Below are positions 4,666-4,940 of a stretch of DNA of 14,142 nucleotides, in pieces. The first letter of the stretch is position 1. Each line of letters begins with the position of its first letter. The position numbers were made by a program, and so were the translations under genes. The stretch comes from Actinomycetota bacterium. Lineage in GTDB: Bacteria > Actinomycetota > Thermoleophilia > Gaiellales > Gaiellaceae. The stretch is from contig PMXT01000078.1 of the NCBI GenBank assembly GCA_003170995.1, positions 4,969 to 19,110 on the forward strand, in the 5' to 3' direction. The notes below the pieces were generated by a model. That model saw nothing but the letters and a program-made list of their open reading frames with translations. It was not told the DNA's origin and did no database searches.

Positions 4666-4733
4666 AGGACGAGTACCGGGATGCGTTTCCTCGCGTTCCT
4701 TGCTTGTTCGCAAAATGGCAAGGAGGTGAGTTA
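4666..4733 (+). promoter_or_regulatory. cspA-1 5' leader with SD-sequestering hairpin
   Basis: This leader contains a stem formed by TCCTTGC (4697-4703) and GCAAGGA (4718-4724). G-U pairs 4696-4725 and 4704-4717 extend it to 9 bp. The 3' arm contains most of the SD (AGGAGG, 4721-4726), seven bases before the ATG at 4734. A 14-base block AGGACGAGTACCGG (4666-4679) upstream is identical in the second csp leader (8644-8657). Known cspA messages are controlled by cold-dependent leader refolding. Here the visible geometry would hide the SD when folded and expose it when opened. Confidence 0.6.
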
Positions 4734-4940
4734 ATGGCAACCGGAACCGTCAAGTGGTTCAACAACGACAAGGGATACGGGTTCATCACGCCCGAAGACG
4801 GCGGGAAGGACCTGTTCGTCCACCACACAGGCATCGAGGGCGAAGGCTTCAAGAGCCTGCCCGAAGGCGCTCGCGTCGAGTTCGAGGCGGTTGAGGGCGA
4901 GAAGGGCCCTCGGGCCACGAGCGTTCGCGTTGTTGGCTGA
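4734..4940 (+). CDS. cold-shock protein, CspA family (copy 1)
   Basis: A 68-residue single cold-shock domain protein, a nucleic-acid chaperone that melts secondary structure in mRNA. Both RNA-binding motifs are present: RNP1 KGYGFI at 13-18 and RNP2 DLFVHH at 26-31, with the aromatic KWF at 7-9. The length is standard. The start is the ATG at 4734, seven bases after a full AGGAGG. It differs from the second copy in the window (8712-8918) at only 9 of 68 residues, all after residue 31. It is monocistronic, followed by a strong hairpin at 4959-5012. The SD lies in a leader stem shared with the second copy, which suggests post-transcriptional control. Whether it is cold-induced or constitutive cannot be told from sequence. 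Confidence 0.96.
   Translation: MATGTVKWFNNDKGYGFITPEDGGKDLFVHHTGIEGEGFKSLPEGARVEFEAVEGEKGPRATSVRVVG

Follow-up and report, generated by a model that had tools for sequence, protein, structure and literature searches.

The leaders of the two cold-shock protein (csp) genes in the window, by which we mean the whole 14,142-nucleotide stretch of DNA analysed here, are best read as four-strand, two-state translational switches, an interpretation to which we give a probability of about 0.6. In the ON fold a 5' strand (strand 1) would pair with the anti-Shine-Dalgarno (anti-SD) arm and loop (strand 2), whereas in the OFF fold strand 2 would pair with the SD strand (strand 3) and strand 1 with the first codons (strand 4); these pairings are written below as 1x2, 2x3 and 1x4. 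Comparison with related leaders gave strong support to 2x3, clear support to the inner part of 1x2 and suggestive support to 1x4, and it suggests that both rival folds have been kept by evolution. The source is a draft genome (1.9 Mb, 200 contigs), and in addition to the two csp genes the window holds a DEAD-box helicase gene and a minus-strand gene for initiation factor IF-1 (infA), one of two infA copies in the genome, the other lying on contig C104 (Table 1). A third csp gene of this genome, outside the window, has a different leader (L002).

Table 1. Positions of the genes, leaders and leader strands in the window.
Feature	Position	Strand	Basis or remark
cspA-1 probable -10 element TAATCT (GGTAATCT at the site)	4647..4652	+	Predicted
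cspA-1 strand 1, 5' box GGACGAGUACCGGGAUGCG	4667..4685	+	Covariance model hit 4666-4736, 40.8 bits
cspA-1 strand 2, anti-SD arm and CUUGUUC loop, common to the ON and OFF folds	4690..4709	+	
cspA-1 strand 3, SD strand GGCAAGGAGGUGAG, paired in the OFF fold	4717..4730	+	
cspA-1 start codon and strand 4 (first codons)	4734..4751	+	
cspA-1, cold-shock protein	4734..4940	+	Pfam CSD 1e-28
infA (IF-1)	6806..7024	-	Pfam eIF-1a 1.8e-23; second copy elsewhere in the genome
Third leader, csp type, before a 36-aa ORF (7139-7029) and the second IF-1 gene	7137..7202	-	R1 19.1 bits
DEAD-box helicase, directly upstream of cspA-2	7315..8538	+	Pfam DEAD 1.5e-49, Helicase_C 4.9e-32
cspA-2 probable -10 element TAGGGT	8627..8632	+	Predicted
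cspA-2 strand 1 GGACGAGUACCGGAUUGCGCU	8645..8665	+	Covariance model hit 8644-8714, 51 bits
cspA-2 strand 2, anti-SD arm and loop	8669..8686	+	
cspA-2 strand 3, SD strand GCAAGGAGGUG	8695..8705	+	Stem 8673-8680 / 8695-8702
cspA-2 (ORF; first codons are strand 4)	8712..8918	+	CSD match 100.6 bits

The four short strands occupy a leader of ~70-75 nt, counted from the inferred transcript start. As read by eye, the leader pattern opens with a -10 element GCTANNNT and, ~20 nt downstream of it and close to the predicted transcript start, the box GARCGAGUACCGG; GCGC...GCGC follows, and then, in order, CUUCCUUACC, CGUUCGUGA, GGUAAGGGAGGUG and AUGGCAACCGGAACC. The conserved 5' strand begins GGACGAGUACCGG, and its partner is the anti-SD arm together with the loop. 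Within the 40 bases before the box, TANNNT was present in 40 of the 41 leaders, compared with at most 19 after shuffling, and GCTANNNT in 33 of 41, compared with at most 3.

The original prediction had placed an SD-sequestering hairpin in the cspA-1 leader, and its two arms, TCCTTGC at 4697-4703 and GCAAGGA at 4718-4724, are present and complementary; in cspA-2 the equivalent CTCCTTGC (8673-8680) pairs with GCAAGGAG (8695-8702). That the stem hides the SD was borne out, and the stem is longer than had been claimed: RNAfold paired 4696-4704 with 4717-4725 and 4690-4694 with 4726-4730, for a total of 14 bp with one bulge, so that all of AAGGAGGUGAG is paired in cspA-1. The fold was more stable than expected from composition for a 45-base piece (z = -4.06; 0 of 200 shuffles as stable) and for a 47-base piece (z = -2.52; 2 of 200). 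The small covariation signal that had been seen between the two copies proved weaker on inspection, because the changes in the end pairs (outer U.G vs C-G, inner U.G vs U-A) are one-sided and compatible, not compensatory, and the two copies alone therefore prove little.

A larger sample of leaders was drawn from relatives. Genes with a cold-shock domain (CSD) turned up in 60 of 61 genomes, and probing with the Csp of the window detected them in 124 of the 129 genomes examined from its order. A script sorted 149 csp leaders before genes starting with ATGG, GTGG, ATGT or ATGA; duplicate loci, named loci except six, leader pieces shorter than 80 bases and other starts were excluded beforehand, and the start-letter filter removes a second csp class. 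Box, loop and SD were all present in 121 of the 149 leaders, with 28 failing, and since leaders entered the test through this search, some of the invariance of these motifs follows from the selection. At least four of the five GGAGG bases were paired in 118 of the 121 cut-out leader folds. Column-wise covariation in two sequence-only alignments (A2 and A3) gave no clear excess over shuffles, as bulges and loop lengths shift the register, and we therefore turned to a test based on swapping strands, for which the helix itself need not be aligned. Duplex energies were calculated for the strands of the same leader and for strands swapped among leaders (20,000 permutations) in a set of 41 leaders with mutual similarity below 0.80, or of 80 leaders under a looser filter.

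Own strands paired better than swapped strands for all three proposed helices at n = 41, with z = -6.76 for 2x3 (p = 5e-5), -3.95 for 1x2 (p = 5e-5) and -2.75 for 1x4 (p = 0.003), and the control strand pairs of the same leaders carried no signal (1x3, z = 0.0; 2x4, z = -0.2). With 80 leaders the values were -10.2, -5.7 and -4.5, respectively, and the controls gave -0.5 and 0.04. When the second strand was shuffled 250 times, a z as low as that observed was reached in 0 shuffles for 2x3, 0 for 1x2 and 1 for 1x4 (lowest values -3.97, -3.28 and -3.30), and in a separate set of 20 shuffles 1x2 went down to -3.62 once; the strand-shuffle null for 1x2 is thus wider than the permutation p suggests. 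Reversed-strand controls, which keep composition and relatedness, brought 1x2 and 2x3 to z values from -0.15 to -0.84, and 1x4 to -1.49 (reversed codons, p = 0.07) and -0.96. Removal of the leaders with a UUGUUC loop, the window's genus among them, left z = -2.95 for 1x2, -6.02 for 2x3 and -2.23 for 1x4 (n = 33), and addition of eight leaders from a family of another class gave -4.06, -6.73 and -2.86 (n = 49; controls 0.26 and -0.81). Those eight leaders alone, few as they are, gave -2.24, -1.68 and -0.73.

The SD-sequestering stem is real and conserved across relatives. Comparison of csp leaders from related genomes, which the original prediction had offered as its own check, found the pairing conserved, with z = -7.3 (n = 42) and -6.8 (n = 41) for the anti-SD arm against the SD strand and z = -3.7 and -3.1 in the same two sets for the part of the stem outside the SD. 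In an alignment of 81 leaders fitted to the structure (A5), and hence leaning towards it, 96 cells had changed on both sides compared with 45.7 +/- 5.4 after shuffling (0 of 500), the GCGC hairpin contributing 31 of them and the SD stem 65; slid versions gave 5 to 55.

The earlier description of a simple stem does not suffice, as a conserved 5' strand competes for the anti-SD arm and may also pair with the first codons. The signal for 1x2 came mainly from its inner part: z was -2.77 for P1, -1.96 for the core and -1.08 for the outer box against the arm, with P1 at z = -2.4 and -0.6 in earlier, differently cut strands, and the outer part alone (box against arm and loop) showed no significant covariation in three cuts (z = -0.45, -0.7 and -1.08). 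Pairing of box with loop was possible in 203 of 210 cells of A2 and 130 of 130 cells of A3, the two variable A/G positions of the box face U, and RNAalifold picked the box-loop pairing unprompted. Transcripts ended just past the loop, before the SD, were predicted to contain at least three of the expected pairs between strands 1 and 2 in 38 of 41 leaders, with a mean of 7.5 pairs versus 4.9 when the box was shuffled and more pairs for the own box than for the shuffled one in 37 of 41. For cspA-1 the predicted truncated fold joined 4667-4675 to 4701-4709 and 4678-4685 to 4692-4699 (-22.6 kcal/mol), and for cspA-2 it joined 8645-8653 to 8678-8686, 8656-8658 to 8674-8676 and 8661-8665 to 8669-8673 (-20.9 kcal/mol); all eight truncated leaders from the other class were also predicted to be ON.

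These results bear on a static device, in which the stem would set a low, fixed translation rate or protect the mRNA while the 5' box did another job in transcription start, RNA stability or protein binding. We consider it unlikely: such a device would agree with a box that begins soon after the presumed transcript start and whose outer part does not covary with the arm, yet it would not account for a whole 1x2 helix that pairs better with its own than with swapped strands (the control pairs being null) or for the 1x2 pairs predicted in the truncated RNAs of both classes. A pseudoknot between the 5' box and the apical loop inside the closed SD stem was tried and rejected, as its 5 bp are nearly always possible, yet have undergone zero double-sided changes, and own versus swapped strands were null (z = -0.33 and -0.36); these bases are better accommodated at the outer end of the ON hairpin. 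An association of A-to-G in the box with C-to-U in the arm was also examined (box position 7 A with arm U in 7 of 7 leader-like matches, tallied by eye) and was set aside as independent evidence because 6 of the 7 are of one genus and probably one gene; many matches of that pattern search look like chance and were likewise set aside. In a strongly diverged leader of the other class (L422), the inner ON helix is rebuilt from different bases, CCGGA...GCC-GCAA-GGC...UCCG.

Pairing of strand 1 with the first codons in the OFF fold is suggestive as judged from sequence comparison. In the fold of 4660-4760 of cspA-1, 4741-4751 can pair with 4668-4679 in the OFF state; earlier strand cuts had given z = -1.68 and -0.96 for 1x4. 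GGA serves as codon 4 in 38 of 41 leaders and GCA as codon 2 in 34 of 39, but later in the same genes GGA was used for Gly 14 in 4 of 41 and for Gly 16 in 3 of 41, and GCA for Ala 12 in 4 of 23. Because the bias is limited to the first codons, their letters seem to be held for a reason other than the protein, of which avoidance of structure near the start codon may be one. Codon 4 of the second csp class is GGC in 25 of 25 genes. In the MAEG-protein lineage (L262, L080) strand 1 has UCUGC and the codons GCAGA, compared with UUGC and GCAA in the others.

In the simplest version of the original prediction, an RNA thermometer, the SD would be hidden by a hairpin alone and freed when that hairpin melts. 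The 2x3 stem that it calls for is real, covaries and covers the whole SD, but we regard this version as very unlikely. A response to temperature through melting was not borne out by the folding predictions, in which the GGAGG was more than half unpaired in a single leader of the 41 at 5 °C and in none of them at 15, 25, 37, 50, 60 and 70 °C; the open-SD fraction predicted for cspA-1 and cspA-2 was at most 0.161 up to 70 °C, and freeing the SD of finished leaders at 37 °C was predicted to cost a median of 7.9 kcal/mol (range 3.0-15.1). An OFF stem predicted to stay shut makes a melting thermometer unlikely, and melting would turn csp genes on in the heat, opposite to what a cold-shock gene requires; nor would it account for the conserved 5' box or for the 1x2 signal. 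Since equilibrium melting would be a poor mechanism, we infer that the fold is more probably chosen while the RNA is being transcribed, with Csp perhaps resetting the choice.

In the switch that we prefer, strands 1 and 2 would form a long hairpin once strand 2 has been transcribed, leaving the SD free (ON); strand 2 would then switch to strand 3, hiding the SD, and the released strand 1 may pair with strand 4 (OFF). Folding predictions have the nascent RNA adopt the ON fold first and the finished leader usually more stable as OFF, a course in which the nascent leader would start ON and drift to OFF. In cspA-1 the minimum-energy fold was ON for the piece ending at +10 and OFF for the piece ending at 4760, and because ON is the minimum fold of the short piece, OFF may not always win. 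Cold would slow the refolding from ON to OFF, and ribosomes would therefore win the race in the cold, whereas plentiful Csp might melt the ON hairpin, speed the change to OFF and so limit its own synthesis. An opposite arrangement, with Csp or the neighbouring DEAD-box helicase opening the OFF stem and activating Csp synthesis with no kinetic choice in transcription, strikes us as quite improbable. Csp proteins melt RNA (PMC7858274), the helicase gene lies directly before cspA-2, and the OFF stem is predicted to be very stable, all of which would suit such an opener; it would be unusual, however, for an abundant protein to be under positive feedback, strand 1 would not be needed, and the switch proposed for E. 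coli (PMC8155936) is autoregulatory, with Csps refolding the leaders of their own genes to tune expression.

How a cold-shock message escapes silencing by its own structure, which becomes tighter in the cold, is an old question that has been studied mainly on the long and complex E. coli leader. The E. coli cspA leader, which is much longer than the leaders described here, is reportedly a thermosensor, a result that reviews credit to Giuliodori in 2010. Two mutually exclusive folds that reach into its coding region, one of them exposing the translation start, are described in PMC9450479, and mutually exclusive folds of this leader also appear in PMC7858274. The leaders of the window would resemble it as csp leaders with two conformations that comparison and prediction suggest to be mutually exclusive, but differ in having four short strands within ~70-75 nt and an SD paired with an anti-SD arm. 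RNA thermoswitches of Staphylococcus aureus cspB and cspC and of Listeria cspA are named in PMC8155936, in which thermoswitches and autoregulation are reported or proposed for csp genes other than E. coli cspA. By description, these too control translation by refolding a csp leader, whereas the host here is a GC-rich actinomycete and the SD stem is predicted to be closed at physiological temperature. Mutually exclusive csp leaders are thus already known, and what is new is this compact variant. Its shared middle strand would have two possible partners, one early and one late, as in four-strand attenuators and translational riboswitches; trp-type attenuators alternate between 1:2 and 2:3 pairing. 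With ROSE and FourU thermometers it shares an SD-hiding stem, from which it differs in that the stem is too stable by prediction and the gene is a cold-shock gene, and neither these nor any other thermometer family in Rfam 15 matched the window.

The leader falls outside the enterobacterial cspA family RF01766, and no Rfam family fits it. The claim that it is unlike the enterobacterial leader held, the best match scoring 35.7 bits at 8676-8969, against a gathering score of 78, and running through the coding region. Among relatives RF01766 scored 33.7 and 16.9 bits in two of the five loci scanned; three loci hold little coding sequence. A search of the whole window against Rfam 15 (E <= 1) returned only a tRNA, the sub-threshold cspA match and a sub-threshold plastid leader over the tRNA. 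A match to RF01766 at a csp gene of Corynebacterium is reported in PMC3890552. No description of this leader was found among the matches listed in a literature search of titles and abstract openings, with subscription papers mostly beyond reach.

A leader this short, with many natural variants carrying compensatory changes, would allow a kinetic, co-transcriptional thermoswitch to be tested directly. Mutants of strand 1 should be off, mutants of strand 2 that spoil 2x3 should be on, and double mutants should be restored.

The leader was found in Thermoleophilia, probably in the Gaiellales, and in one family of another class of Actinomycetota; the named contigs with the closest csp genes carry labels such as Thermoleophilia, Thermoleophilaceae and Gaiellaceae, and Gaiellales is our reading of those names. 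A covariance model of the csp leader (R1), used with strict filters, matched 76 of 299 genomes of the class and 37 of 191 of good quality, all within two families of the window's order. A widened model (R2) matched 15 of 296 genomes of the phylum: 3 belong to the window's family, 8 to a single family of another class, and 4 had single weak matches (E 7.5e-4 to 9e-3). That other family had matches in 8 of its 16 genomes, with 9 hits; the 8 loci that were read (L421 did not fit the pattern) each lie in front of a csp gene.

The third leader of the window, before the second IF-1 gene, was found by R1 with E = 0.0021 in the window unfiltered and E = 0.28 genome-wide; its counterparts in two genomes of the genus had genome-wide E of 1.3e-4 and 3.8e-4 and are each followed by IF-1. 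In it, GCGCCUUCU at 7182-7174 pairs 9/9 with AGAAGGUGC at 7155-7147, around the SD, with letters that differ from those of the csp leaders. It is possible, and we put it forward tentatively, that this undescribed, compact four-strand leader family marks a cold-shock regulon in two classes of Actinomycetota, in which the nascent leader would be ON, the cold-slowed refolding rate would decide and Csp would reset the switch, the module having spread from csp genes to the second copy of IF-1 and to a number of other genes, small or unknown, once apparently carrying the first Csp codons with it. The same element before the second IF-1 and other genes would then mark such a regulon in bacteria mostly known from metagenomes.

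Several further loci were observed in the course of the searches. The 36-aa ORF between the third leader and IF-1 is unlike that of two other genomes (G002 and G005), which have another ORF, of 37 aa, at this place. At L317 (608-676, minus strand) and L319 (53-120, plus strand) the leader precedes a gene with a Csp-like start (MAAGTIKWF and MAAGTVKG) that continues as a zinc-ribbon-like sequence (CAGCGYGI...CPMC), as if the leader and the first Csp codons had been kept together, and L320 and L321 look like decayed copies. Leader variants CGAAUACCGA ... UAUCCGUUC stand before other genes at L327, L328, L352, L353 and L355, that at L328 preceding a 101-aa unknown protein (MASNASKKLVAVEDD...); a leader precedes an apparent membrane protein at L324 and a cysteine-rich small protein at L326, and a leader variant precedes another gene at L325.

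Other csp genes carried other arrangements. The second csp class (L002 and 25 other loci), mostly with TTG starts, has a hairpin-like conserved GACGGC-UCGGUGCCYGG-GCCGUC upstream of AAGGAGG. In three relatives (L203-L205) csp follows directly on the apparent helicase stop codon, without the leader and with a strong SD. Solirubrobacterales-like csp leaders (L115, L124-L126, L129, L131, L136, L391, L400 and others) have an SD stem of their own, CCUCC...GGAGG, and a conserved AGUGC box. The four-strand design was tried on these leaders and rejected (1x2, z = +1.9; 1x4, z = +1.3; the strand cutting was rough), and their SD stem gave z = -3.2 (n = 15), or -3.5 without a repeated leader (n = 14).
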